Source: Arcobacter ellisii
GTDB taxonomy: Bacteria > Campylobacterota > Campylobacteria > Campylobacterales > Arcobacteraceae
DNA: 64,000 nucleotides
Assembly (NCBI RefSeq): GCF_003544915.1
Contig: NZ_CP032097.1
Span: forward strand, 558,001 to 622,000
Direction of reading: 5' to 3'
Shown here: piece after piece, positions 9,165-24,440 of the stretch
Numbering within the stretch: position 1 is the stretch's first letter
Layout of the letters: every line of letters starts with the position of its first letter
Translations under genes and position numbers: made by a program
The notes under the pieces: generated by a model
Seen by the model: only the letters and a program-made list of their open reading frames with translations
The model's database searches: none
Told to the model about the DNA's origin: nothing

Positions 9165-11056
<1,892 letters not shown>

Positions 11057-11301
11057 AAGATGGGTATGATGTAAGACAACTTACACATTTACTATCTATC
11101 TTAGTGAGAGAGAAAGTCGATTTTATCGACAATCTTTCTCATTCCTTACTAACAATTTACTTCACATAAATTTCAAAATTTCTAAGTTTTTTCAATGTTA
11201 AAACAAAAAAATTAAGTAAATTTATGTATCAACTTAGAAAAAATATTACAAAATCTTAGAAAACTTTTACCCGATGGAACTACGTTGTAATCGTCTCTGA
11301 A

Positions 11302-11326
11302 TAGAATTCCAAGAGTTGGAAATCTA
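11302..11326. promoter_or_regulatory. 25-bp palindrome, copy 1 (upstream of integrase)
   Basis: TAGAATTCCA-AGAGT-TGGAAATCTA; one base differs from the perfect palindrome TAGAATTCCA-N5-TGGAATTCTA. It lies 76 bp before the integrase start. Probably an operator for an element-encoded protein. Confidence 0.75.
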
Positions 11327-11401
11327 TTTTTTCTAAGTCATTATTTTTTTCTAAGTTTTTTTCTAAGTACACATCATAAATTTACTCTTTAGGAGTAAGA
11401 A

Positions 11402-12493
11402 ATGATTAAATCAAAAAAGTTTACAGGTATCTATTATAGAAAGAAAAAGAATGGTGATATCACATATTATTTTACATATCAGGATGAGGGTAAAACTAAA
11501 TATCAAAAAGTAGGTGATAAGTCACAAGGTATAGATGAACAATATGTTAATGATATTAGAATTACAACTATTACAAATATAAAGAATGATGAATTACCTC
11601 CAAAAATTGTTAGAAAAAATAACAATAAATATAATATTACAGTAGATGATATTTCAATATTTTATTTTCAATATCATCAAACTAAATCTAGTAAAAAAAG
11701 ACAACGACAATATAACTATCGTTTAAAAGATTTCTTCGGTAAAATGAGTATCTATAATGTGACAGAAAAACATATAGAACAATTTAAAGAAAAAACACTA
11801 CAAGAAGTCTCAGAACAAACAACTTTAATTTATTTAGAGTTACTATCAACTTTATTTAATTATTATAGTAGAAAAAATCATATCAAACTCATCAACCCAG
11901 TTATGTTAGTTGATAAACCTAGAGTAGATAATATACGTCAGAGATTTTTATCAAAAAAAGAAATTGATATATTATTTGATGAAATAAAAGAAAATTTTAC
12001 AATGACTATTTTTTTATCATTGTGTTTGTGTACAGGAGCTAGGAAGAGTACAATATTGAATTATAAAGTTAAAGATGTAGACTTTGAACATAAAATGATT
12101 AATTCATATGATTTCAAAAATAGTAGTTCCTATAAAAGTTTTTTAGATGATAGAACTATAGAATTAATTAAAGTTAGAATGGAACAAACTGATAATCTTA
12201 ATGATAATTTAGTTTATATGTATGAGATTCACGATTTAGAAAGATGGATTTCTAGAATGTTTAAAATTGTATTAGATAATTTATTTAATAAGGGTTTAGA
12301 TAAAAATGATACAAAGAATAGAGTTGTGATACACACTTTTAGACATACTGTACTTTCTCATCTTGGAATTAAAGGAAACAATGAATTTTTAATAAAAAAA
12401 ATATCAAATCATAAATCAACTGAGATTGTAAGTCGTTATGTAAAATTAAATGATGAATCAGGAAAAAAAGAAATTGAAGAATTATGGAAGTAA
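11402..12493 (+). CDS. Tyrosine recombinase (integrase)
   Basis: A 363-aa integrase. An N-terminal arm-binding-like segment (GIYYRKKKNGDITYYFTY) is followed by a SAM-like core-binding domain (about 85-165) and the catalytic domain with R214 (CTGARKST), H311-x-x-R314 (HTFRH), H337 and nucleophile Y346 (SRYVKL). It starts after a good TAGGAGTAAGAA site. It presumably joins ATGATGTA at the groEL end with the same core in the circle. Two inverted core sites, one in each long repeat, would also let it flip one half of the circle, as Flp does. Intact. Confidence 0.92.
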   Translation: MIKSKKFTGIYYRKKKNGDITYYFTYQDEGKTKYQKVGDKSQGIDEQYVNDIRITTITNIKNDELPPKIVRKNNNKYNITVDDISIFYFQYHQTKSSKKRQRQYNYRLKDFFGKMSIYNVTEKHIEQFKEKTLQEVSEQTTLIYLELLSTLFNYYSRKNHIKLINPVMLVDKPRVDNIRQRFLSKKEIDILFDEIKENFTMTIFLSLCLCTGARKSTILNYKVKDVDFEHKMINSYDFKNSSSYKSFLDDRTIELIKVRMEQTDNLNDNLVYMYEIHDLERWISRMFKIVLDNLFNKGLDKNDTKNRVVIHTFRHTVLSHLGIKGNNEFLIKKISNHKSTEIVSRYVKLNDESGKKEIEELWK

Positions 12494-12507
12494 TGACTTA
12501 GAAAAAA

Positions 12508-12532
12508 TAGATTTCCAACTCTTGGAATTCTA
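12508..12532. promoter_or_regulatory. 25-bp palindrome, copy 2 (mirror of copy 1)
   Basis: TAGATTTCCA-ACTCT-TGGAATTCTA, the A' mirror of copy 1. It lies just after the integrase stop, so the integrase is bracketed by two copies. Confidence 0.75.
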
Positions 12533-12778
12533 TTCAGAGACGATTACAACGTAGTTCCATCGGGTAAAAGTTTTCTAAGATTTTGTAATATTTTTTCTAA
12601 GTTGATACATAAATTTACTTAATTTTTTTGTTTTAACATTGAAAAAACTTAGAAATTTTGAAATTTATGTGAAGTAAATTGTTAGTAAGGAATGAGAAAG
12701 ATTGTCGATAAAATCGACTTTCTCTCTCACTAAGATAGATAGTAAATGTGTAAGTTGTCTTACATCATACCCATCTTC

Positions 12779-12786
12779 TACATCAT
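12779..12786 (-). other. Internal uncut recombination site (attP-like)
   Basis: Reverse-strand ATGATGTA at the A'/B' boundary. Read on the minus strand the junction is TCTAGTATGATGTAGAAG. Joining the right edge of the element (TCTAGT-core) to the left edge (core-GAAG) gives the same sequence, so this is what an unrecombined site of the circle should look like. Confidence 0.7.
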
Positions 12787-12961
12787 ACTAGACATAAAAA
12801 AAACAACAATTTCTTTGAGTAAGTATAACTCCAAAATACTTATATGTAATCTATTTCTTAGAAGTTAAACAGTTATTATTAAAAATAAAAAACTACACAC
12901 TATATAGTATTTGTATATTCATTTAGAACATCATTAAATATTAAATTAAATTGATATGAAC

Positions 12962-13007
12962 TCCGTAAACACGAAGTGTTTATGGAGGACATTCACACGA
13001 AGTGTGA
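12962..13007. terminator. Two adjacent hairpins 3' of the B' recombinase copy
   Basis: TCCGTAAACAC-GAA-GTGTTTATGGA (12962-12986) and TCACAC-GAA-GTGTGA (12993-13007), both with a GAA loop on this strand (TTC on the other). They are the mirror of 24156-24201 and lie downstream of the serine recombinase gene. Either terminators or protein-binding sites. Confidence 0.5.
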
Positions 13008-13389
13008 TTTGTAATCTTGTTGTTTGTACTTAAATAATATATACATCTTTATAGTAATATTTACTCTTAATCTAATTTATGTATCAAATTTCTCTTCTTA
13101 ACATAAGTGTGTAATGAACTAACTTCACCATATCCTAGATGATTTATTACTTTTCTAAAACTAAGTCCTAGTGTTAGTAATTCAACTATTCTATCTTTAT
13201 CTATATCGTACTTTGATGTTTGTATAGTACCAGTCTTCTTACCTAATTTGATTCCTCTATCTTTTGAATTTTTTGACTGAAAATTGACCCACTATTTTGA
13301 AAACTTTTGACCCACCTGTAAACTAAAAAAACATACTCTTTTCTCATAAAAATAATAATTATGAAGAAAGGTAAAAGGAGATGATTAGT

Positions 13390-14892
13390 ATGGAGGATTG
13401 GGTAACTATTCGTAATCTAAAAAAGAAAGATCCAAACTTAGGGACAAGAACCATTGCTTTAATGTTAGGTATTAGTAGAAATACTGTAAAAAAAGCATTA
13501 GCAAGTGATGAATTACCTTTATATAACAGAGGTGAGAAAAAGATAAATGAAGCAGTTGAACCATTTATTGATTTTATCAAAGAGTCATTTTTAAAGAAAA
13601 ATTTAAAAGCTAGTAGAATTTTAAAAGATATAAAATCAAAAGGATATAGAGGAAGTCAATATGCTTTATATGCTTACATAAGAGAAATTTTAAAACCAAT
13701 AGCAAACGATGTAAGTAAAAATTCACCTCATGCTTACATGAGATATGAAACAAAACCAGCTGAACAGATGCAATATGATTGGAGTCCATATACAGTTACT
13801 ATTGGGGAAAATCTTGTAAAAATAAATATACATCAAACAATCTTAGGATTTAGTAGATATAAATTTTATGATGTAAGTTTAAATGTATCAGGAAGTGATG
13901 TATATACAGCATTAGAAGAGAGTTTTATCTTCTTTGGTGGAGTTTGTGAGAGAATACAAGTTGATAATGCAACAGTATTTATAACAAATGCTTCTAAAGA
14001 TAATCTAATTTGGAATCCAAGATTCTTGTCATTGTGTGGATTATATGGAATAAAACCAACACGAAGTATGCCATCACATCCATGGAGTAAAGGTAAAGTT
14101 GAATCACCTTTTAGTTATCTTGAAACACATTTTATATCTGGAAATGAGTTTAAAAGCTTTGAAGATCTAAGAGAACGATTAAAACAATTCCAAGATGAGC
14201 ATAATCTTGAAATTCATGGAACAACTAAACAAATTTCAAAAATACTCTTTGAAAAAGAGGAACAAAGTTTTTTAAAACCACTACCAATAAATCCAATAAC
14301 TGGGGAATTAAAACGATATGTTGGATTTAAAGAAGAGTTTAGAAAGGCAAATTCTGAATGTTTAGTCTCTTACAAAGGTAATAAATATTCAGTTCCACAT
14401 TACTTTGCAAGTAAAGAGGTGTGGTTAAGAGTATTATATGGAACAACTTTGCAAATATACTCAAGTAAAAATAAACTAATAGCAACTCATACAATTAGCC
14501 TTAAAAAAGGTGAAGTCCTTGTTAATAAAGAGCATTTCTTTGGATATAGAAAAGAGAGTCAGTTTGATTCAATAGCCATTTCAATATCAAGACTTATAAA
14601 AAGATTTGCTAACTACATAAATATTCATAAATTCATTGAAAATATCAAAGTTCAAAAAAGAATTAGCCCAGCTTATCACCTTTATAAAATAGCAAACTTG
14701 TTTGAATACTATGATGAAGCTGATTGTATTATGGCAATGGAAGAAGCAATTAGTTTAAATATTTATAGCTTCTCCTTTATCAAAGGAACAATTACACATC
14801 AAACTAAGCCAAAAAATGAACAGTTAAATCTGTTTAATATCAAATTACCCCAAGCAAATATAAAAAGAGATTTAGGAGATTACAAATTATGA
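13390..14892 (+). CDS. istA: IS21-family transposase IstA
   Basis: About 500 aa. N-terminal helix-turn-helix (NLGTRTIALMLGISRNTVKKAL), then a DDE integrase core: D in MQYDWSPYTV, D in IQVDNATVFIT and E in SKGKVESPF. AAAGGAG lies at 13374-13380; the ATG at 13390 has better spacing than the one at 13381. The stop overlaps istB by 4 bp (ATGA), as usual in IS21 elements. Intact, so the IS may still be active. Confidence 0.95.
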   Translation: MEDWVTIRNLKKKDPNLGTRTIALMLGISRNTVKKALASDELPLYNRGEKKINEAVEPFIDFIKESFLKKNLKASRILKDIKSKGYRGSQYALYAYIREILKPIANDVSKNSPHAYMRYETKPAEQMQYDWSPYTVTIGENLVKINIHQTILGFSRYKFYDVSLNVSGSDVYTALEESFIFFGGVCERIQVDNATVFITNASKDNLIWNPRFLSLCGLYGIKPTRSMPSHPWSKGKVESPFSYLETHFISGNEFKSFEDLRERLKQFQDEHNLEIHGTTKQISKILFEKEEQSFLKPLPINPITGELKRYVGFKEEFRKANSECLVSYKGNKYSVPHYFASKEVWLRVLYGTTLQIYSSKNKLIATHTISLKKGEVLVNKEHFFGYRKESQFDSIAISISRLIKRFANYINIHKFIENIKVQKRISPAYHLYKIANLFEYYDEADCIMAMEEAISLNIYSFSFIKGTITHQTKPKNEQLNLFNIKLPQANIKRDLGDYKL

Positions 14893-15728
14893 GAACTAAA
14901 AATACAACAAACTTACGTAATTCTGGACCAGTTAATTTAGAAAATGGTTCACTAAAAGCAAATATAGAGAGTTATTGCAAACTTTTATCTCTTTCATCAG
15001 TAGCAGATAATTATGAAAGTGCAGCACTCGATGCTGCTAAAGCAAAACTATCATATCAAGATTATCTGTATAAACTATTGCAACAACAAATTGTTGATAG
15101 AGTTGATAGAAGTGTAAATGCTAGAATTAAAAAAGCAGGATTCAAATATATGGCAACTTTAGATGAGTTTGATTTTAGCTTTCAACCACAAATAGATGAA
15201 AAATTAATAAGAGAATTAGCAACTCTAAGCTTTTTAGATAGTGCTACAAATGTACTTTTAGTTGGAGCACCAGGAGTTGGAAAAACTCATCTTTCAATTG
15301 CATTAGGACTTGAAGCCACCAAACAAAGAAGAAGAGTAAAATTTATAAGTGCTGAAGATTTAACCAATGAACTAATAGCTGCAAATCACTCTAATACTAT
15401 AACAGATTATCTTGAAAGTATGAGTAGAATAGAGTTACTAATAATTGATGAAATTGGATACTTAGACCTTTCAAGAGAAGTAGCATCACTTTTTTTTAGA
15501 CTTATTTCAAAGAGATATGAAAAATCTTCAACAATAATTACATCAAATAAAGAATTTCAAGAATGGGGACAGATATTTAATGATGATGTGATAGCAACAG
15601 CAATACTAGATAGACTTTTACATCATTCACATCCATTTTTAATAAATGGTCCAAGTTATAGAATGAAAGATTTATTGCCAAAAAGTAAAAAGAAACAAAA
15701 TTTAGAGAATAAAAATAACGAAATTTAA
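14889..15728 (+). CDS. istB: IS21-family helper ATPase IstB
   Basis: A 279-aa AAA+ protein related to DnaC: Walker A GAPGVGKTH, Walker B LLIIDEIGYLD and sensor-like TIITSNKEFQEWG. IstB supports IstA in target choice and strand transfer. Overlaps istA and is complete. Confidence 0.95.
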   Translation: MRTKNTTNLRNSGPVNLENGSLKANIESYCKLLSLSSVADNYESAALDAAKAKLSYQDYLYKLLQQQIVDRVDRSVNARIKKAGFKYMATLDEFDFSFQPQIDEKLIRELATLSFLDSATNVLLVGAPGVGKTHLSIALGLEATKQRRRVKFISAEDLTNELIAANHSNTITDYLESMSRIELLIIDEIGYLDLSREVASLFFRLISKRYEKSSTIITSNKEFQEWGQIFNDDVIATAILDRLLHHSHPFLINGPSYRMKDLLPKSKKKQNLENKNNEI

Positions 15729-16376
15729 TGTTATAATTTCAATCTGCAGGTGGGTCATTTTTAATCAAAAAAGTGGGTCAAATTTCAATCAAAATTTTCA
15801 ATCTTTTAAGTTCTGTAGACTCTCTTTAGTTCTTTGACTTATAATGTCTCTTTCAAATTCACTAAACATTGATAAGATTGTAATTAACATCTTGTTCATC
15901 GGGTCTTTTGATTTTATAAACAAGTTCTGTTTCAATATTCTTACTTCAACATTCATTTTAATTAGAGTATCAATGAGAGTTATTACTTCACCAGTGTTTC
16001 TACCTAGTCTAGAAAGTTCTGTTACAATTAAAATATCACCATCTTTTACTTTAGATAGTAATTCATCAATCTTTCTTTCTCTTAAATCTTTTCTTGAACT
16101 AATTTCAACTTTTATAGACTCATCAATACTTAGGTGATTTAAGTCACAGTATCTTTGAATTTCATCTAATTGAACTTTTACTGATTGTTGATTTGTACTA
16201 ACTCTAATATAAGAATAAATCATTTGTTTTTTACCTTGTTTATATGTGTTCTGTATTAATATAATTATAGTAATAAAACAGAACAAGGTCAAGGCATCTT
16301 GTGAGAGAGTTATTTAGAATAAAATGTTCTCTTTTATCGTTCGTTAAAATATGATGAATTTATCTGAATAATGATA

Positions 16377-16401
16377 TAGAATTCCATTAATTGGAATTCT
16401 A
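16377..16401. promoter_or_regulatory. 25-bp palindrome, copy 3 (in B')
   Basis: Perfect: TAGAATTCCA-TTAAT-TGGAATTCTA. It lies upstream of the split serine recombinase copy and 31 bp past the HsdS remnant stop; it is the mirror of copy 6. The rest of 16224-16683 holds the recombinase promoter, the HsdS remnant and a palindrome ACCAATT-N7-AATTGGT (16620-16640) ahead of the diguanylate cyclase. Confidence 0.8.
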
Positions 16402-16432
16402 CTTAGGTGAATAAAGAATACTATTTACTTAA

Positions 16433-16575
16433 TTACTCTGATAATAATGAATCTACACTAATAGAAACTACAGAGTTAAAGTCATTGATTGCATCTTCAA
16501 TCCTTCTTAGTAAACTGTCTAAATTATTAGAGTCATTAGAATAAATTACATCACCAAGTTTTTGATGTAAAGATA
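16433..16575 (-). pseudogene. 3' remnant of the HsdS-like gene in B'
   Basis: The last about 48 codons of the gene at 22598-23272 are duplicated here because repeat B begins inside that gene. Beyond 16575 the frame continues for a few codons into unrelated sequence with no ATG start in view. Probably non-functional, but recombination between B and B' would exchange what lies upstream of this 3' end. Confidence 0.75.
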
Positions 16576-16683
16576 GTAAAAATAAAACACTAATCCTTTA
16601 AAATTAATTAAAATCTATGACCAATTTAGTTATAATTGGTATTTCACTTTATTATAAAAAATTAAATCATAGCAGGAATCATA

Positions 16684-18591
16684 ATGTCTCAAAGAAGTTT
16701 TCAAAAATATTTTATGTTATATTTTATAATTTTTGGAATAATTATCTCTACTTTGGGAACAAGTATTAACTATTTATTTCAAATAAACGAAATTAATCTT
16801 GATACAGTTAAAAAAGCAAAAGATATATATGACATAAAAATTGATACTATTTTAAAACCTGCTATTAAAGATATTGATAAAACTGTTAAATCTTTAGCTA
16901 CAAATAAAACAGTTATAGAATATATAACTACTCATAATTCACATTCACAAGAAGAACTTGAACAGATATTTTTAGCAGTAGTTGGCTCTCAAAATGAAAT
17001 TATGCAAGCAAGACTAATTTCAAAAGATGGAAAAGAGATAATTAGAGTTGATAAAAATAAAAATAGTGATGATGCTTTTGTTACTCCAAAAGATAAACTT
17101 CAAGATAAAAGTGATAGGGATTATTTTAAAATGGTCTCTTTTATGAACGAACAATCAATTTGGCATTCTAAAATGGATTTAAATATAGAAAATGGAAAAA
17201 TTGAAATACCATATAATCCTACATTTAGAACAGCTATGCCACTTTTTGATAAGGAAAATAAGTTTGCTGGTATGGTAATAGTAAATATGCATTTAACAGC
17301 TCTTTTTAATGCTATTGGTAAATCTTCTACTTTTGAACACTATATTCTTGATAAAGACAATAACTTTATACTACATCCAAATGATGAATTTTCATTTAAT
17401 AAATATACAAATGTAAAAAGAAATATAAATGATGATTTCCCAAATGGATTAAATGATAAAGAAATATTTGTATTTCCAATTGATAATATTTTAAAAAATG
17501 ACGATAAAGCGACATTAGTTTTAAAACCAAAGAATATATATAAATCAACACTCCTTCAAAGTAAAATATATACAGCATTTTGGGTAGCATTAATTACGAT
17601 AATACTAAGTTTAATACTTTCAATTTATGCAGCAAAAAATCCAGTTAAATTACAAATGGCTCTTTTAAAAGCTCACGAAAAATTAAATGAATTTACATTA
17701 ATTATAGATAAATATATTATCACAGCAACTACAAAAAAAGATAGTACAATAGTTGATGTTAGTAGTGCTTTTATAAAGTCTTCTGGTTACTCAAAAGAAG
17801 AATTAGTTGGTCAAAAAATGCATATTATAAGACATCCAAATGAAGATGAAAAGAAATTTAAAGAGTTATGGAATACTGTAAGTTCAGGTAATGCTTGGGA
17901 TGGTGAAATCAGAAATAAAAATAAAGATGGTGAAGATTATTGGCTTCATCAACATATAATTCCAACTTTTGATAAAGAGAATAATATTGAAACTTTTGTT
18001 TCTTTAGGAACTGATATAACAGCTAAAAAAGAACTTGAAAAAATGGCATCAATAGATAAACTAACAAATATCTATAATAGAAGAATGATTGATGAATTTT
18101 TAAGAAAAGAGATAGCAATAGAAAAAAGACATTCAAATGGATTATCACTGATTTTGATAGATATTGATTACTTTAAAAAAGTAAATGATACTTATGGGCA
18201 TCAAATGGGAGATTTAGTTTTATCACAAATTGCAAAAATTATCACTAAAAATAGCAGAAAATCAGATATTCAAGGAAGATATGGAGGAGAAGAGTTTATA
18301 GTTATTTGTCCACAAACTACTTGTAAACAAGCACTTGTGTTGGCTGAAAAAATAAGAACTGCAGTTGAAAATTTCAACTTTGACCAAATAGGAACAAAAA
18401 CAATAAGTTTAGGTATCTCTACATATGAAGAAAATGACACAGAAGAAAGTTTAGTTAAAAAAGCAGATATTGCTTTATATCAAGCAAAAAACAGTGGTAG
18501 AAATAAAGTTATTTTATTTGAGGGAATTGATTTAGAAGAACGAGAACTTGAAAGTTTTAATACTTATGATTATCAATCTTATGTGATTTAG
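16684..18591 (+). CDS. Membrane diguanylate cyclase (Cache-PAS-GGDEF), element cargo
   Basis: A 635-aa protein. Membrane segments at about 10-32 and 300-318 bracket a periplasmic Cache-like sensor (DRDYFKMVSF, GMVIVNMHLTALF). A PAS domain follows (about 345-450: SSGYSKEELVGQKMHIIRHPNED, NKDGEDYWLHQHIIP), then a GGDEF domain with G534-G-E-E-F538, so the active site for making cyclic di-GMP is intact. Ligand unknown. It lies in the large single-copy part of the element, 108 bp inside the B' boundary, and reads toward the small ORF. It is carried by the element rather than needed for its transfer. Confidence 0.92.
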   Translation: MSQRSFQKYFMLYFIIFGIIISTLGTSINYLFQINEINLDTVKKAKDIYDIKIDTILKPAIKDIDKTVKSLATNKTVIEYITTHNSHSQEELEQIFLAVVGSQNEIMQARLISKDGKEIIRVDKNKNSDDAFVTPKDKLQDKSDRDYFKMVSFMNEQSIWHSKMDLNIENGKIEIPYNPTFRTAMPLFDKENKFAGMVIVNMHLTALFNAIGKSSTFEHYILDKDNNFILHPNDEFSFNKYTNVKRNINDDFPNGLNDKEIFVFPIDNILKNDDKATLVLKPKNIYKSTLLQSKIYTAFWVALITIILSLILSIYAAKNPVKLQMALLKAHEKLNEFTLIIDKYIITATTKKDSTIVDVSSAFIKSSGYSKEELVGQKMHIIRHPNEDEKKFKELWNTVSSGNAWDGEIRNKNKDGEDYWLHQHIIPTFDKENNIETFVSLGTDITAKKELEKMASIDKLTNIYNRRMIDEFLRKEIAIEKRHSNGLSLILIDIDYFKKVNDTYGHQMGDLVLSQIAKIITKNSRKSDIQGRYGGEEFIVICPQTTCKQALVLAEKIRTAVENFNFDQIGTKTISLGISTYEENDTEESLVKKADIALYQAKNSGRNKVILFEGIDLEERELESFNTYDYQSYVI

Positions 18592-18596
18592 ACAAG

Positions 18597-18633
18597 TTTA
18601 CTTAAGTAATGTAAGACATCTTACTTAAGTAAA
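18597..18633. terminator. 13-bp stem hairpin between convergent genes
   Basis: TTTACTTAAGTAA (18597-18609) pairs perfectly with TTACTTAAGTAAA (18621-18633) around an 11-base loop. It separates the diguanylate cyclase (+) from the small ORF (-) and probably terminates both. Confidence 0.6.
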
Positions 18634-18842
18634 TCCCTAAAACTTTTAACTTTTGGGTTTTCTAGTGCTTGTTGAAATACTTTAATATCATATTTTTCAA
18701 ATACTCTGTCAAATTCATATACAATACTATTAAAGAGAATAAGAAAGTCATCGATTGAACAATTCTCTAGCTTACTAATAAGTGCAACAATATCATCTTC
18801 TATTTCTCTCCAATCAAGTGTTTTATTTATTTCATTTTTCAT
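18621..18842 (-). CDS. Small acidic protein downstream of the polymerase gene
   Basis: A 73-aa, probably all-helical protein with AAAAAGGATAC before its ATG. It begins 52 bp after the polymerase-like gene on the same strand, so the two are likely co-transcribed. No family is recognised. The position suggests an accessory replication or copy-control protein, which is a guess. Confidence 0.55.
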   Translation of the reverse strand: MKNEINKTLDWREIEDDIVALISKLENCSIDDFLILFNSIVYEFDRVFEKYDIKVFQQALENPKVKSFRDLLK

Positions 18843-18894
18843 TTTAGTATCCTTTTTTAGAGTATTTATACTTAGTTATTAAAAGAATAGAATT

Positions 18895-20292
18895 TTAAAT
18901 ATTCATCATTTTATACAATTCTTCATCAGAAAATTGTTTTGAAATTGGCTCTTTAAATAAAGTATTTATCTGAGTTTCTTTTTTTATAAAATGATATAAC
19001 TCAGATTCATCAATTTCTTTTTTTGTATAAAGACAGTCGTGAACTCTTACATAATTAAAATCATTTGTTGTACTTGTATAAAACTTTATCATTGAATCTA
19101 AAACTACACTTTCAAGTGATTGATACAGGTGAGCAACTACTGTTGATTTTTTCCACTTTCTCAATTCTAAAGTATGATTATTAAAACCAATAACTTTTCT
19201 ATTATCTTTTTCTTTATAATGATTACTTATAACATCAAAAAGTTTTTTTATATCTTTATATAATTGGTATTCATAAGTTGTTTTATCAGATAGAATTAAA
19301 TTAACTATATCTATACCTAGACTTTTAGTTACTGCTGAATTATATTTAAAATCATTAGACAATAATTTACTTCCAAAAAATAAAGATGTGAAAAACTCTT
19401 TACTTTTATCTAAAGAGATATTGTATTTTTCAGCAAAAATTTCTCTAATTCTTTTTTTATTGATTATGAAATATTTTATTGTTGAAGGTATATTTTCATT
19501 AGTAATACTTTTGTAAATTTGACTCAACAATAGAGGTGCTGATACAGAAATATCATATTCATTGTAATCATTTAAGATAATATTCCTAACTTCTTTTTTT
19601 AAAGACTGAATAGAATATTCTCCAATACTATAATATCTACCAGAATGTGATTGTCTGTAATAAATTTTAAGTTTATTATTATTTTCTGAAATATAATAGT
19701 ACATTTTTCTAAGTGGCTCAATTTTATATTTAATAAATTTAAATAATTCTGCATCAGCTTCGACTGTTTCTTTATCAAGATATTTCTGTACAGGTTCCCA
19801 ATATTCAATTAATTTTTTTTTTATATATTCAATGTTAATTTCTACTTCTTCATAAAAATTACTTTTTGTTTCATCAACTTCTTCATCTATTTGAATATCT
19901 TTAATTCTTACTTGTTTTTTATTGACTTCAATAAGTTCATAAGTTGGATTATAAGATAACCATTTACAATATGAATCAATTAATAATTTTGTAATTTGAT
20001 ATCCATTTGTTGCTTGATTTAAATTGTTCCCATAAAATCTTAATTGAAATAATTTGTGAAAAACGTGTTCAGGTTTTTTATCAATTATTTGACGCCATCT
20101 ATTTTGACTAAATAAATCATATTTCATATCTTTACTTATTGATAAACAATTGTTATCAAACTTATGTTCAAGAAATCTATTTGATAAATTTGAAATTAAA
20201 TACATAATTCCATTAATGTCTTCTTTTTCAATTTCTGGTAGATAATTTGTAATTGGATTATCACCATATAATAAATTTTTTTTAATTTTCAT
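18895..20292 (-). CDS. Compact family-A-like polymerase (putative replication protein)
   Basis: A 465-aa protein without an assigned name. The C-terminal half shows single-subunit polymerase motifs in order: HSGRYYSIGEYS (216-227; compare DFRGRVYAVS of T7 RNA polymerase), motif A YDISVSAP with D247, motif B K298-x7-F306-G307-S308 (compare KRSVMTLAYGS of T7), and motif C YVRVHDCLY with H418-D419. No exonuclease domain is visible, and the N-terminal 200 residues are unassigned. Family-A enzymes use the two aspartates for metal-dependent nucleotide addition. I infer a primase, polymerase or replication initiator for the circular element. Preceded by CAAGG and, 54 bp upstream, an operator palindrome. 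Confidence 0.65.
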   Translation of the reverse strand: MKIKKNLLYGDNPITNYLPEIEKEDINGIMYLISNLSNRFLEHKFDNNCLSISKDMKYDLFSQNRWRQIIDKKPEHVFHKLFQLRFYGNNLNQATNGYQITKLLIDSYCKWLSYNPTYELIEVNKKQVRIKDIQIDEEVDETKSNFYEEVEINIEYIKKKLIEYWEPVQKYLDKETVEADAELFKFIKYKIEPLRKMYYYISENNNKLKIYYRQSHSGRYYSIGEYSIQSLKKEVRNIILNDYNEYDISVSAPLLLSQIYKSITNENIPSTIKYFIINKKRIREIFAEKYNISLDKSKEFFTSLFFGSKLLSNDFKYNSAVTKSLGIDIVNLILSDKTTYEYQLYKDIKKLFDVISNHYKEKDNRKVIGFNNHTLELRKWKKSTVVAHLYQSLESVVLDSMIKFYTSTTNDFNYVRVHDCLYTKKEIDESELYHFIKKETQINTLFKEPISKQFSDEELYKMMNI

Positions 20293-20345
20293 AATTGAAC
20301 CTTGTGATAATTTGTGTATCTTATTTTTATTAATTGTATAAAAAA

Positions 20346-20370
20346 TAGAATTCCAATAATTGGAATTCTA
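20346..20370. promoter_or_regulatory. 25-bp palindrome, copy 4 (upstream of polymerase)
   Basis: Perfect: TAGAATTCCA-ATAAT-TGGAATTCTA. It abuts the stop codon of the ParB-like gene and lies 54 bp before the polymerase-like start on the minus strand. Confidence 0.8.
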
Positions 20371-20740
20371 TTACTCTATTAATTCTCTAAATGCTACTTG
20401 TAAATTTTTAATTGATTTTGAATTTCCAAGATAATAATTGTATTTTTCACTACTAGATAGTTGATATATATCAAATAACTTAGTATCAATATTTTTTGAT
20501 GAATATTCAATTATGTTTTTTTCAGAAATATCACTATTAAAATAATTAAAATACTCCTCTATACCTTGCTTTTTTAACTCATCATCATAATTATTTTTTA
20601 GGAAATCTATTTTTTTATCATTGATATATTTAATATCATTATGATAAGCCTGGAATGACCCCAAAAATATAGACATAAAATAATTCAGTTAATTAATATA
20701 ACAATTTAGAGAAAATTGTAAATAATTGAAGGAATTAAAA

Positions 20741-21025
20741 ATGGGAAGAAGAGAATATAGTGAAGAGTTTAGAAGGGATGCTGTAAAACAAGTTGTTGAG
20801 AATGGATATGGGATTGTTGAAACAGCTGAGAGATTAGGTGTACATCATGATTCTTTGAGAAATTGGATAAGAAAGTACCAATCACCTGAAGCAGAAGTAG
20901 AAACAAAAAAGTTTCAAGATACACAAGCTGAAATAAAAAGATTACAAAAAGAGCTAAAAAGAGTTACAGAAGAACGAGATATATTAAAAAAGGCCGCAGC
21001 GTACTTTGCAAGCAACCCAAATTAA
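20741..21025 (+). CDS. IS3 OrfA (helix-turn-helix transposase subunit)
   Basis: About 94 aa from ATG 20741 (GAAGGAATT just upstream); an in-frame ATG at 20726 is less well placed. HTH_Tnp_1-type domain (RREYSEEFRRDAVKQVVE ... HHDSLRNWI) followed by a leucine-zipper-like segment. The heptamer A-AAA-AAG at 20986-20992 in this frame is a classical -1 frameshift site leading into the OrfB frame. Confidence 0.93.
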   Translation: MGRREYSEEFRRDAVKQVVENGYGIVETAERLGVHHDSLRNWIRKYQSPEAEVETKKFQDTQAEIKRLQKELKRVTEERDILKKAAAYFASNPN

Positions 21026-21909
21026 AGTACGCATTTATTAAAGTGCATGAAATACAGTACACAATAAGAAGAATGTGTACTGTGTTAAAAGTTCATCCAA
21101 GTGGGTATTATAAATGGTTAAAACAACCTATTTCAAATCTTGAAAAAGAGAATCAAGAACTTCTTATTGAAATAAAAAAAGCATATAAAGAATCAAATGG
21201 AATTTATGGTTATAGAAATATTCATAAGGATTTGAAAGCTTCAAATATTCATGTAAATAAAAAAAGAGTTGCAAGATTAATGAAAGAAGCAAAACTTTGT
21301 GGAATAGGAAATTATAAAAGAAGACCTAAGTATAAAGCAGGTTCAATTCATAAAGCTCATCCAAATCATTTAAAACAATGTTTTATATCACAAACTCCAA
21401 ATGAATCATGGGTAAGTGATATAACTTATATAAGAACTCATGAAGGATGGATATATCTTGCAATTATCTTAGATTTATTTTCAAGGAAAATTATAGGATG
21501 GGCAACAAGTCATAGAATTACAACAGATTTAATAATTCAAGCATTAAAAAATACTAAATATAGAATTCCAAAAGATGGAGTAATTTTACATTCAGATCAA
21601 GGGAGTCAATATAGCTCATATGAATATAAAACTTTTTTAAAACATCATAACATCACACCAAGTATGAGTAGAAGAGGAAATTGTTATGATAATGCAGTTG
21701 CAGAAAGTTTTTTTAAAACATTAAAAAAAGAGTTAGTAAGAAAAACCATTTTTAGAACAAGAGAAGAAGCAAGAGATAAAATATTTGAATATATTGAGAT
21801 GTTTTATAATTCAAAAAGAAGACATAGTTATTTAGGTTTTATAAGTCCAAATGAATTTGAGAAAAGGTACAATGAAAATGTTACTCAACCTGAGGTGTTA
21901 ACTGATTAA
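20992..21909 (+). CDS. IS3 OrfB (DDE transposase)
   Basis: The OrfB frame is open from the slippery site at 20986-20992; an independent GTG start lies at 21043 (288 aa). The catalytic triad is visible: D in WVSDITYI, D in LHSDQGSQYSS and E in NAVAESFFKTLKKE. It probably acts as an OrfAB fusion made by -1 frameshifting. Intact. Confidence 0.94.
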   Translation, partial: GRSVLCKQPKLKYAFIKVHEIQYTIRRMCTVLKVHPSGYYKWLKQPISNLEKENQELLIEIKKAYKESNGIYGYRNIHKDLKASNIHVNKKRVARLMKEAKLCGIGNYKRRPKYKAGSIHKAHPNHLKQCFISQTPNESWVSDITYIRTHEGWIYLAIILDLFSRKIIGWATSHRITTDLIIQALKNTKYRIPKDGVILHSDQGSQYSSYEYKTFLKHHNITPSMSRRGNCYDNAVAESFFKTLKKELVRKTIFRTREEARDKIFEYIEMFYNSKRRHSYLGFISPNEFEKRYNENVTQPEVLTD

Positions 21910-22271
21910 AAAAGTGTCTACTACTTCGGGGTCATTCCAGTTCAGCTCTTATAAGATTTTCATCAATTTCTATTAATTTCATTTTATCTTCATCTTCTGT
22001 ATTAACTATATTACATAATATTGTTTCAAAATTTAATTCTTTACAAGCAGTATATCTATGATAACCACTAATTAGAATATTATTTTGATTGATTGTAATT
22101 GGGTTTAGTAAACCATTTCTTTGAATTGAATCTGATAATGGGCTAATCATATCTGTATTAATACTTCTTAATCTATCTAAGATAATAATTTCATCTAATT
22201 TCATTTCTTTTATATTTAAATCTTTAATGTCTTCAACTTTATTCATTTCTATTTCTCACTTTCTATTTTAT

Positions 22272-22296
22272 TAGAATTCCAGTTCTTGGAATTCTA
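22272..22296. promoter_or_regulatory. 25-bp palindrome, copy 5 (upstream of ParB-like gene)
   Basis: Perfect: TAGAATTCCA-GTTCT-TGGAATTCTA, 26 bp before the ParB-like ATG on the minus strand. This spacing fits autorepression or a ParB loading site. Confidence 0.8.
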
Positions 22297-22597
22297 TTTC
22301 AAATTTGGCATCACTCAACTAAGTTTTTTTTATCGATGCAACTTTTTTCTAAACTAATGTTTAGATCTGACTTTATAACTTTTTAAATAAAACTGTTTTA
22401 TTAATATAATTAACATAACGATTAATTTTATAGGTTAAAAAATAAGAGCACTTAAAATGCTCTATTAATCGTTTTGTTAATCAAATAATTCCATATGTTA
22501 ACTTAATTAATTCTTAAAATTATCATAATGATTTAAAAAATTAACAATAAGATTAATTTAAGCTGTTTATCTTTATAATTTTCAAAAGGATTTAAAA
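22297..22597. other. AT-rich intergenic region, possible replication origin
   Basis: About 300 bp with no ORF, between the divergent ParB-like and HsdS-like genes. It holds a nested inverted structure: TAACATAACGATTAAT (22411-22426) against ATTAATCGTTTTGTTA (22464-22479), 15 of 16 matching, around a hairpin AGAGCA-N7-TGCTCT (22445-22463). Further TTAAT/ATTAA runs follow to 22560. This is what an origin or a strong regulatory site could look like; there is no direct proof. Confidence 0.4.
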
Positions 22598-23272
22598 ATG
22601 TATGAAACAAAATTAGCTAAATGTTCATTTATTACTAGAGGTGTTAAGGTTAAAGAAGAGACTAATTATGGAATAGATTATTATGAAATCAATATGAAAG
22701 ATTTTGATGGTAATTCTTTAAATATGCCGACTGAGCTAAAACATAATGGTAGTGATGATCAAATAAAACTAAAAAGATTAGAAAAAGGTGATATTGTTAT
22801 TCCAGTAAGAGGTTCATCTATAACAAATAAAATTGCAATATTTGAATTAGAATCAGAAATACCTTGTATTGTTAATCATCAATATTGGATTATTAGACCT
22901 GACAAAAATGTATTAAATAGTTATTACTTATTGTTTTTTTTATTAAATAAAGATACAAAGAAACTATTAAATAGTGATGAAAGAAATATGTCTGATACAA
23001 ATATGAAAAGTATCAGTAAAGAACCACTAAAAGATTTAATTATAGAACTACCCCCATTAGACATACAAGATGATGCTAAAAAAATCTTTCTTCAATATCA
23101 AGAGCTTCACAAACATATAAATTATTGTATATCTTTACATCAAAAACTTGGTGATGTAATTTATTCTAATGACTCTAATAATTTAGACAGTTTACTAAGA
23201 AGGATTGAAGATGCAATCAATGACTTTAACTCTGTAGTTTCTATTAGTGTAGATTCATTATTATCAGAGTAA
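22598..23272 (+). CDS. Half-length HsdS-like DNA-specificity protein
   Basis: A 224-aa protein resembling one target-recognition half of a type I restriction S subunit: ARCSFITRG-type start (KCSFITRGVKV), LKRLEKGDIVIPVRGSSITNKIAIF, NHQYWIIRP, SYYLLFFLLN and the closing KEPLKDLIIELPPLDIQ with a helical tail. Full S subunits have two such halves, so this one would need to dimerise. No hsdM or hsdR is in the window. It might redirect a host type I system, or act as a stand-alone DNA binder. Its last 48 codons lie inside repeat B, so its 3' end is duplicated at 16433-16575. Confidence 0.65.
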   Translation: MYETKLAKCSFITRGVKVKEETNYGIDYYEINMKDFDGNSLNMPTELKHNGSDDQIKLKRLEKGDIVIPVRGSSITNKIAIFELESEIPCIVNHQYWIIRPDKNVLNSYYLLFFLLNKDTKKLLNSDERNMSDTNMKSISKEPLKDLIIELPPLDIQDDAKKIFLQYQELHKHINYCISLHQKLGDVIYSNDSNNLDSLLRRIEDAINDFNSVVSISVDSLLSE

Positions 23273-23303
23273 TTAAGTAAATAGTATTCTTTATTCACCT
23301 AAG

Positions 23304-23328
23304 TAGAATTCCAATTAATGGAATTCTA
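23304..23328. promoter_or_regulatory. 25-bp palindrome, copy 6 (in B)
   Basis: Perfect: TAGAATTCCA-ATTAA-TGGAATTCTA. It lies between the HsdS-like stop and the serine recombinase promoter, 85 bp before the -35 box. Mirror of copy 3. Confidence 0.8.
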
Positions 23329-23412
23329 TATCATTATTCAGATAAATTCATCATATTTTAACGAACGATAAAAGAGAACATTTTATTCTAAATAACTCTC
23401 TCACAAGATGCC

Positions 23413-23472
23413 TTGACCTTGTTCTGTTTTATTACTATAATTATATTAATACAGAACACATATAAACAAGGT
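23413..23472 (+). promoter_or_regulatory. Serine recombinase promoter inside nested inverted repeats
   Basis: TTGACC (23413-23418), 17-bp spacer, TATAAT (23436-23441). An outer inverted pair ACCTTGTT (23416-23423) / AACAAGGT (23465-23472) and an inner pair GTTCTGT (23421-23427) / ACAGAAC (23451-23457) enclose the -10 box and the start region. It could be a recombinase binding or crossover site, giving autorepression. The same array is mirrored in B'. Confidence 0.65.
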
Positions 23473-23481
23473 AAAAAACAA

Positions 23482-24096
23482 ATGATTTATTCTTATATTA
23501 GAGTTAGTACAAATCAACAATCAGTAAAAGTTCAATTAGATGAAATTCAAAGATACTGTGACTTAAATCACCTAAGTATTGATGAGTCTATAAAAGTTGA
23601 AATTAGTTCAAGAAAAGATTTAAGAGAAAGAAAGATTGATGAATTACTATCTAAAGTAAAAGATGGTGATATTTTAATTGTAACAGAACTTTCTAGACTA
23701 GGTAGAAACACTGGTGAAGTAATAACTCTCATTGATACTCTAATTAAAATGAATGTTGAAGTAAGAATATTGAAACAGAACTTGTTTATAAAATCAAAAG
23801 ACCCGATGAACAAGATGTTAATTACAATCTTATCAATGTTTAGTGAATTTGAAAGAGACATTATAAGTCAAAGAACTAAAGAGAGTCTACAGAACTTAAA
23901 AGATAGAGGAATCAAATTAGGTAAGAAGACTGGTACTATACAAACATCAAAGTACGATATAGATAAAGATAGAATAGTTGAATTACTAACACTAGGACTT
24001 AGTTTTAGAAAAGTAATAAATCATCTAGGATATGGTGAAGTTAGTTCATTACACACTTATGTTAAGAAGAGAAATTTGATACATAAATTAGATTAA
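23482..24096 (+). CDS. Serine recombinase / resolvase (intact copy)
   Basis: A 204-aa small serine recombinase of the Tn3 resolvase/invertase type. The nucleophile is S9 (YIRVSTNQQS). The ELSRLGRNTGEV and MFSEFERDIISQRTKE blocks follow, and a C-terminal helix-turn-helix covers about residues 150-195 (DRIVELLTLGLSFRKVINHLG). I choose the ATG at 23482, with AAGGT upstream; the longer frame from 23413 runs through the promoter. It may resolve multimers of the circle or invert DNA between its sites in B and B'. Confidence 0.9.
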   Translation: MIYSYIRVSTNQQSVKVQLDEIQRYCDLNHLSIDESIKVEISSRKDLRERKIDELLSKVKDGDILIVTELSRLGRNTGEVITLIDTLIKMNVEVRILKQNLFIKSKDPMNKMLITILSMFSEFERDIISQRTKESLQNLKDRGIKLGKKTGTIQTSKYDIDKDRIVELLTLGLSFRKVINHLGYGEVSSLHTYVKKRNLIHKLD

Positions 24097-24155
24097 GAGT
24101 AAATATTACTATAAAGATGTATATATTATTTAAGTACAAACAACAAGATTACAAA

Positions 24156-24201
24156 TCACACTTCGTGTGAATGTCCTCCATAAACACTTCGTGTTTACGG
24201 A
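24156..24201. terminator. Two adjacent hairpins 3' of the serine recombinase
   Basis: TCACAC-TTC-GTGTGA (24156-24170) and TCCATAAACAC-TTC-GTGTTTACGGA (24177-24201, one mismatch). They share the CACTTCGTG core. No U tract follows, so a binding site is as likely as a terminator. Confidence 0.5.
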
Positions 24202-24376
24202 GTTCATATCAATTTAATTTAATATTTAATGATGTTCTAAATGAATATACAAATACTATATAGTGTGTAGTTTTTTATTTTTAATAATAACTGTTTAACT
24301 TCTAAGAAATAGATTACATATAAGTATTTTGGAGTTATACTTACTCAAAGAAATTGTTGTTTTTTTTATGTCTAGT

Positions 24377-24384
24377 ATGATGTA
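24377..24384 (+). other. attR core (ATGATGTA)
   Basis: Right edge of the element: the preceding TCTAGT belongs to repeat B and the following AAATCATTTTTTGATTT is chromosomal sequence that would follow groEL directly if the element were absent. Confidence 0.75.
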
Positions 24385-24410
24385 AAATCATTTTTTGATT
24401 TTTCTTTTTA

Positions 24411-24440
24411 AACCGTACTCTTTTGGGGTACGGTTTTTTT
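24411..24440 (+). terminator. Rho-independent terminator, probably the original groESL one
   Basis: AACCGTAC (24411-24418) pairs with GTACGGTT (24428-24435) and a T run follows to 24440. In the element-free arrangement it would sit about 27 bp after the groEL stop codon. The rest of 24441-24520 is AT-rich upstream sequence of the HD-GYP gene. Confidence 0.85.

Follow-up and report, generated by a model that had tools for sequence, protein, structure and literature searches.

The window analyzed here is a 64,000-nt stretch of the Arcobacter ellisii genome (G000:C1:558001-622000) that contains an intact 465-aa open reading frame (ORF) on the minus strand (18895..20292). Low G+C and the character of the genes are suggestive of an Arcobacter-like host within Campylobacterota. 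The ORF list, the predicted fold and the conserved motifs identify the encoded protein as a TV-Pol-type family-A polymerase, which is the sole match of its kind in this genome of 2,799,949 bases. The gene is located in a 13.3-kb integrated element (about 11056-24384) between groEL and the groEL terminator. At the left boundary, the 3' end of groEL, whose stop codon ends at 11056, contains an attL-like core, ATGATGTA (11048..11055, plus strand). The core recurs in direct orientation at 24377-24384 and in inverted orientation at 12779-12786. Further copies are found at 11066 and 12761 within inverted repeat C and at 13868, 15619 and 20841, the last three presumably by chance. Beyond the right boundary, a terminator-like hairpin (24410..24436, plus strand) is probably the terminator of groEL itself, displaced by the insert, as judged from uninterrupted relatives.

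The element contains two inverted repeats, C and R. The left copy of repeat C (11048..11346, plus strand) is identical to the right copy (12488..12786, minus strand) at 298 of 299 positions, with the mismatch at the edge, and the gene of a 363-aa tyrosine recombinase (11402..12493, plus strand; PF00589) follows the left copy. The left copy of repeat R (12776..16575, minus strand) holds a broken resolvase gene and is split at about 13266-15797 by an IS21-like insertion (13266..15797, plus strand) with ORFs of 503 and 279 aa, which was recognized by eye. Its two pieces, 12776-13265 and 15798-16575, match the right copy (23130..24387, plus strand) at 489/490 and 777/778 positions, again with the mismatches at the edges. 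The right copy includes the attR-like core at 24377-24384 and a serine resolvase ORF (23413..24096, plus strand; PF00239) that is open; translation probably begins at an ATG further on, given that the listed TTG overlaps a promoter-like site. The inverted core (12779..12786, minus strand) sits within an internal attP-like junction: on the minus strand, R runs out into this core and C begins directly after it, as an attP site should read. In a circle formed by excision, C and R would thus make up a pair of inverted repeats, each about 1.55 kb long, with the IS interrupting one of the pair.

The remaining genes of the element are diverse. A sensor diguanylate cyclase with PAS and GGDEF domains according to Pfam (16684..18591, plus strand) represents cargo. 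Directly downstream of the polymerase gene, a 73-aa ORF (18621..18842, minus strand) shows no convincing family in Pfam, PHROG or NCBIfam. An IS3-like insertion with two ORFs (20726..21909, plus strand), also recognized by eye, apparently interrupts a ParB_N-domain ORF (21932..22246, minus strand; PF02195, E 2.5e-6). On the opposite side of this IS, the ORF list contains a 101-aa ORF (20371..20676, minus strand) that is perhaps the remainder of the interrupted ParB_N gene. An HsdS-like specificity ORF (22598..23272, plus strand; PF01420) precedes the open resolvase. At the gathering threshold, Rfam matched nothing in the element. In plasmid records, the resolvase has 298 relatives, of which 208 are from Campylobacter; the highest identities, however, are to Legionella and others. 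The tyrosine recombinase has 1 such relative.

Sequence motifs and conservation of the polymerase

The original prediction described a 465-aa protein with an ordered series of polymerase motifs. Every motif lies at the predicted residues and is conserved across the family. In the window protein, HSGRYYS starts at residue 216, DIS at 247, KEFFTSLFFGS at 298 and HDC at 418, and the KEFFTSLFFGS block provides K298, F306, G307 and S308. An alignment of the window protein with 15 relatives (A7, 16 rows) reveals a conserved catalytic set of invariant residues, R219, D247, R283, K298, G307, E394, H418 and D419 (16/16 each), and at least 90% conservation of Y212, G218, Y221 and Q391. The relatives on genome contigs were retrieved by pattern, either [DE]YD..N.H around motif A or VL.QHDGF at motif C, and D247, His252, H418 and D419 were partly selected for in these pattern-fetched rows. 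The invariance of R219, R283, K298, G307 and E394 is independent of the retrieval patterns. Rows P0001, L003, L004 and L007 were obtained by tblastn or whole-profile search. Absent from A7 are L020 (broken), L023 (a 45-residue match), L008 and L026 (fragment), L010 (partial), L009 and L011 (on the same contig as L005) and G522 (found later).

Which residues occupy the positions that govern sugar choice in related enzymes? We used the residue numbers of Pol I (Glu710, Phe762) and T7 RNA polymerase (Tyr639) for position matching, and by a spacing rule we take position 252, five residues after the motif A Asp, to be equivalent to Glu710 and position 302 to Phe762. Position 252 is occupied by His in 13 rows, Ala in 2 (the window protein among them), Val in 1 and Glu in none of the 16; in the pattern-free rows P0002, P0001, L003, L004 and L007, it is Ala, His, Val, His and Ala, respectively. 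Position 302 is Leu, Thr, Ile or Val and never Phe (0/16), with T302 in the window protein. The original prediction placed Phe at the position of T7 Tyr639, and F306 is indeed found there, a position that is Tyr in 14/16 rows and Phe in 2/16 (the window protein and L005). It also suggested that this Phe may influence sugar choice. The residue itself is confirmed, and the question of sugar choice lies more in the missing equivalents of Glu710 and Phe762. An Arg four residues before K298 occurs in none of the 16 rows.

Sequence libraries contribute little to the identification. The window protein has one match only in Pfam (E 5.3), none in NCBIfam, a best match of E 0.041 in PHROG and none by sequence among PDB chains. 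Across the 16 members, the Pfam Pol I model gave no match, and other weak matches are scattered, the best being Clp_N for one member (E 8e-4); PHROG matches are likewise scattered, the best being phrog_34692, of unknown function, for one member (E 1.1e-5). Since neither Pfam nor NCBIfam provides a worthwhile match to the window protein, genes of this kind will probably stay unannotated.

Predicted fold of the polymerase

The AlphaFold2 model, calculated from the window protein and ten relatives, has a mean pLDDT of 76.2 and a pTM of 0.72. Averages over ten-residue blocks range from 63 to 93 (mostly >78) over residues 141-440 and from 41 to 79 over residues 1-140. A fold without a palm would have spoken against the polymerase assignment; the model contains a palm, in which D247 ends strand 244-247 and D419 sits between strands 414-417 and 420-423. 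Helices 154-173 and 181-203 come before the hairpin in the model, and the TV-Pol thumb consists of two antiparallel helices. As had been predicted, no exonuclease is visible by sequence; a degenerate one is possible in residues 1-140, which are modeled at low confidence.

In a Foldseek search of the PDB, 24 matches were obtained at E <=0.001, which by title are Pol I from the apicoplast, Bacillus or Aquifex, or T7 DNA polymerase. The best match has an E value of 1.1e-5, and T7 RNA polymerase first appears at E 3.2e-3. VIA-align 2 superimposes the window model on T7 DNA polymerase with a Z score of 15.2 (rmsd 3.8, 285 aligned residues) and on Klenow with a Z score of 14.4 (rmsd 4.0, 284 aligned). 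The model of the relative L012 is better than the window model (pTM 0.81) and matches Pol theta (Z 16.6, 304 aligned, rmsd 4.3) and Klenow (Z 16.5, 305 aligned, rmsd 4.6). T7 RNA polymerase as the closest relative was rejected on the Foldseek scores. A search of viral models returned uncharacterized phage proteins of 547 and 509 aa in the top rows, and many rows were nameless. A Zamilon virophage DNA replication protein was matched by the window model (E 1.8e-7) and by a second model (E 8.6e-8), and the second model also matched a Qinghai Lake virophage helicase/primase/polymerase (E 7.1e-8). For the window model, Zamilon ranks 7th, above all rows named DNA polymerase among the viral matches listed; for the second model, Qinghai Lake and Zamilon rank 11th and 12th, with one named DNA polymerase higher among the matches listed.

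HMM-HMM comparison, suggested originally as a check, was too weak to be informative. The alignment with Pol I (from 12 genomes) and T7 DNA polymerase covers 25 columns at a probability of 2.5%, with the family stretch SGRLY..nLQ...R on tGrls..pnl.niP.r of the Pol I profile, and that with T7 RNA polymerase covers 33 columns around motif C at a probability of 0.7%. The family profile matched no polymerase in the PDB. Because these sequence and profile comparisons to Pol I are weak, the link to family A rests on the fold and the motifs. On its model, the window protein has a family-A polymerase-type fold of the T7-RNA-polymerase/Pol I superfamily. The original description as T7-RNA-polymerase/PolA-like thus holds at the superfamily level, and the predicted fold is closer to family-A DNA polymerases than to T7 RNA polymerase. 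In its polymerase domain, the predicted fold is that of Pol I and T7 DNA polymerase. The window protein differs from both in having no recognized exonuclease, no Pfam Pol I match, no Glu at the E710 position and no Phe at the F762 position.

Integration site and its recurrence

Among 29 groEL loci of other species, four (L034, L035, L036 and L041) are uninterrupted and carry the right flank of the window 47-104 nt past groEL; one locus (L037) stops at groEL. The uninterrupted groEL 3' region in these 4/29 loci therefore counts in favor of the 13.3-kb stretch being an insert. The layout recurs in G022 (L065 748-2697), which contains groEL, a 321-nt arm, a tyrosine recombinase, the inverted arm and part of an inverted resolvase before the contig ends. 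The G022 recombinase is 53% identical to that of the window. The G022 arms are 99.7% identical to each other and show no alignment to the C arms of the window beyond about 40 nt of the groEL end. Arms that are identical within a genome and unlike between genomes form the pattern expected of ongoing recombination. Profile searches detected no TV-Pol in G022, whose other half lies beyond the contig end.

Of 104 genomes in the family, 63 contain a relative of the tyrosine recombinase, which is thus not specific to TV-Pol elements. Long inverted arms were considered as a general trait of this integrase family and rejected, as they occur in only 2 of 20 loci, both at groEL (contig ends truncate three of the 20). 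Our literature search found no Arcobacter genomic island reported with groEL as its integration site, and for a groEL attachment site combined with a tyrosine recombinase and a genomic island, it led only to a paper on mecD in Macrococcus.

Relatives of the polymerase and their gene context

The family is rare within the lineage of the window. With the single protein as query, one of the 31 genomes from the genus and one of the 104 from the family gave a match, and profile searches matched 3/397 in a phylum draw, 3/228 in the family of G425 and 3/398 in an order draw. Members in this lineage are G000, G425, G522 and a fragment in G414, and the G522 protein is the nearest (E 5e-74, 31% identity in an alignment of 466 columns). 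Elsewhere, the window protein had a single match among 72,556 plasmid records, on Polaromonas pW9NP1 (E 7e-9, 22% identity), and two among 50,697 phage records (E 4e-11). The two phage entries are equal in length and position and apparently represent one Desulfovibrio phage. The pW9NP1 protein as a query retrieved one further Polaromonas plasmid. Viral contigs scanned with the window protein and with the G425 protein gave no match; a four-row profile found one viral contig, and other viral scans returned one contig repeatedly (L005, L009 and L011) and one partial match (L010). A three-row betaproteobacterial-type profile detected 12 loci in 71 candidate genome-contig stretches, one of them only a 45-residue match; all 12 are titled betaproteobacteria, a range that partly mirrors the query. 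The Desulfovibrio phage relative (L003 7290-9593) has 767 aa and contains a long C-terminal extension past the polymerase core.

The gene context was compared with reference proteins in 17 loci with a polymerase ORF, many of which end at contig edges, so that the counts are lower bounds. A serine recombinase is present in at least five loci (three are the references themselves), a tyrosine recombinase in at least four (two are references and one is weak) and RepA in at least three (two are references). On the Polaromonas plasmids, the relatives occur alongside RepA, ParA and a resolvase; the available text of Ciok 2018 on Polaromonas plasmids treats RepA_C replication and does not mention a polymerase of this kind. 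Directly upstream of the polymerase, L002 (6828-7205), L004 (5669-6049) and L012 (1384-1755) carry DUF669-like ORFs, for which the Pfam match is weak and under the cut-off (E 0.013 and 0.029). A profile built from L004 and L012 matched the L002 ORF (E 1.6e-13), which adjoins its polymerase gene when the circular pW9NP1 record is read through the origin, and nothing further in the sources scanned, the window included. The accessible text of PMC5928155 describes one DUF669 protein, from phage HK620, as an SSB.

In the locus of the nearest relative, G522, a clamp-loader-like ATPase (L030 8357-9154; E 5e-24 to T4 gp44) is located 0.2-0.3 kb upstream of the polymerase, and a tyrosine integrase lies near this pair of TV-Pol and T4 gp44/RFC-like clamp loader. 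Close to the same TV-Pol gene, a 706-aa ORF with a YADD motif (L030 2210-4330) is reverse-transcriptase-like by eye and possibly a defence gene. In G425 (L029 6680-11271), a putative mini-element of 4.5 kb is bounded by tRNA-Ser copies that have 81 identical nt in common; it contains a TV-Pol, an integrase and one unknown gene.

Discussion

TV-Pols are minimal family-A polymerases of mobile elements with predicted primase and polymerase activity, and examples from the Microcystis phage Ma-LMM01 and from Thauera have been listed (Iyer, Abhiman, Aravind 2008, PMC2579912). The window protein, for which no named family had originally been recognized, is placed with TV-Pol through its virophage fold matches, a profile match in Ma-LMM01 and its gene context. 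In Ma-LMM01, the family profile produced one significant match (E 2.4e-8), located beside a transposase, among 504 ORFs from 150 of 162 kb, and the best E value against shuffled Ma-LMM01 ORFs was 0.18. This match would correspond to the listed Ma-LMM01 TV-Pol. Similar to TV-Pols, the window protein is a minimal family-A core without a recognized nuclease, has an extra N-terminal region, falls in the range of 400-600 aa and occurs in a mobile element with a gamma-delta resolvase or integrase. It also has the TV-Pol arginine hairpin, with an invariant R219 (16/16) and model strands 207-214 and 220-223, and the palm with two Asp residues, D247 and D419, which are present in 16/16 rows and partly selected for in the pattern-fetched ones. 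Thauera provides one relative of our family and one TV-Pol of the published list, matched by genus name only.

The window protein differs from described TV-Pols in several respects. The RxxxK motif of the fingers is missing in 16/16 rows, in which R283 is invariant instead, and RxxxK is also missing from the Ma-LMM01 protein as aligned. TV-Pols are described with a D5 helicase as neighbor or fusion partner, or with an N-terminal TV-PolN domain. The D5 helicase that is typical of many TV-Pols was not recognized near the window gene, and a Pfam scan of nine element ORFs found no helicase; the N-terminal region of the window protein received no assignment in the fold search. The window element integrates at groEL and has a double inverted attP-like region. 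The species list in the legend of Iyer 2008 contains no Campylobacterota, and no TV-Pol from this phylum was seen in the available text of PMC2579912, PMC7581432, PMC10061031 and PMC11348598. The window protein is therefore placed with TV-Pol as a variant and not as a textbook member. The TV-Pol group has been known since 2008; in the libraries searched, none of the polymerase models matches the window branch.

Two primase systems are close to this branch. According to the accessible text of Bebel 2020 (PMC7581432), CCPol was then the only characterized TV-Pol to those authors' knowledge, requires the MP subunit for priming, and prefers dNTPs while keeping E710 and F762, which discriminate against ribonucleotides. 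CCPol-MP of SCCmec, as described in the portion available, resembles the window protein as a family-A core with no recognized exonuclease, encoded by an integrative element that also carries a site-specific recombinase. Unlike CCPol in that description, all 16 rows lack the equivalents of both E710 and F762, and the window protein has A252 and T302 instead. The PolA-SSB primases (Rice 2023, PMC10061031) consist of a polymerase gene paired with an SSB-like gene, as do L002, L004 and L012; in the text seen, the published examples are all from Bacillota, whereas these three loci are betaproteobacterial. One profile of two SSB-like ORFs detected no SSB-like partner in the window element; OB proteins diverge so far that one may have escaped this profile. 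TV-Pols have been proposed to resemble the ancestor of DNA polymerase I and T7-like RNA polymerases (Iyer 2008, PMC2579912), and a branch that lacks both ribonucleotide-rejecting residues provides direct assay material for this ancestral primase/polymerase claim. With its doubled, inverted attP-like region, the element at groEL also lends itself to testing in bacteria how replication is linked to recombination.

What is the function of the polymerase in the element? We propose that it is likely a family-A TV-Pol polymerase of a groEL-inserting 13.3-kb element that primes and/or extends DNA to copy the excised circle. The element would insert at the groEL 3' end, most likely through its own tyrosine recombinase, and the same enzyme would excise it as a circle. 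On this circle, the polymerase most likely primes and/or extends DNA, presumably with a host helicase and SSB; the resolvase would resolve multimers, and the ParB-like function would partition the copies. The original prediction had invoked autonomous replication of a circle. A probable replication enzyme is retained; the circle is a predicted form, and the gene lies inside an integrated element in a chromosome-sized contig. G022 counts against our proposal, since it has the same integration layout and no TV-Pol match.

The IS insertions, one of them within a resolvase copy and the other at the ParB_N ORF, suggest that the element may be decaying. Could the polymerase then be an inactive or decaying remnant, carried passively after the two insertions? 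The IS21-like insertion in the left resolvase copy and the IS3-like insertion by the ParB_N ORF are consistent with this reading, as is the finding that 30 other species of this genus gave no match. However, the polymerase ORF is intact and keeps every invariant residue, the protein is 31% identical over residues 1-440 to the intact G522 relative, and open reading frames persist for the tyrosine recombinase and for the resolvase in its right copy. A remnant is unlikely, although it is the most probable of the alternatives.

A still less probable and speculative reading sees in the element a bacterial equivalent of the 2-micron circle, with inversion-redirected replication and a polymerase that, for want of the Pol I ribonucleotide gates, starts DNA chains with ribonucleotides as an RNA-priming family-A primase. 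The yeast 2-micron circle contains two near-identical inverted repeats, each with a tyrosine-recombinase site, and two unique halves. The near-identical inverted repeats C and R with their recombinase-like site resemble this organization. On the excised circle, each ~1.55-kb repeat would have a site of the tyrosine recombinase, for which the ATGATGTA core is the candidate, and a resolvase gene, and recombination would keep the repeats identical. Unlike the yeast circle, the window element is bacterial, integrated in the chromosome and known here from sequence, and its inversion and amplification are hypothetical. No bacterial 2-micron-like element was found in our literature search.

More doubtful again is a gap-filling or repair polymerase that acts at recombination or excision and not in replication. 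The two recombinases of the element and the fact that no helicase was recognized there fit such a role, but some related genes adjoin replication initiators, clamp-loader or SSB-like genes. The least probable proposal, a single-subunit RNA polymerase that transcribes element genes from dedicated sites in the manner of T7 RNA polymerase, accounts for the GRxY block, the K-x7-[YF]-G-[SA] and HD[GC] (motif C) signatures, the absence of Glu at the E710 position (0/16), T7 RNA polymerase among the fold matches and a common palindrome near element genes, but is opposed by the far better fold scores of DNA polymerases, by the RepA, SSB-like or clamp-loader genes that adjoin some relatives and by a length of 465 aa, which leaves little room for a T7 promoter-binding domain.

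The palindrome is specific to the element. It consists of 25 bp, TAGAATTCCA-N5-TGGAATTCTA, and is located at 20346..20370 and at 11302, 12508, 16377, 22272 and 23304. These six window sites, of which four are independent because the repeat arms mirror each other, compare with none in 100 shuffles. The rest of the genome has no site with <=1 mismatch and two with 3 mismatches, and other genomes of the genus contain 3-mismatch matches only. An operator, a terminator and a replication site are candidates for its role. The palindrome lies 26-85 nt ahead of the positions at which the ORFs of the polymerase, the ParB-like protein, the recombinase and the resolvase are listed to start; it also lies directly after several stop codons, and three copies score as terminator-like.
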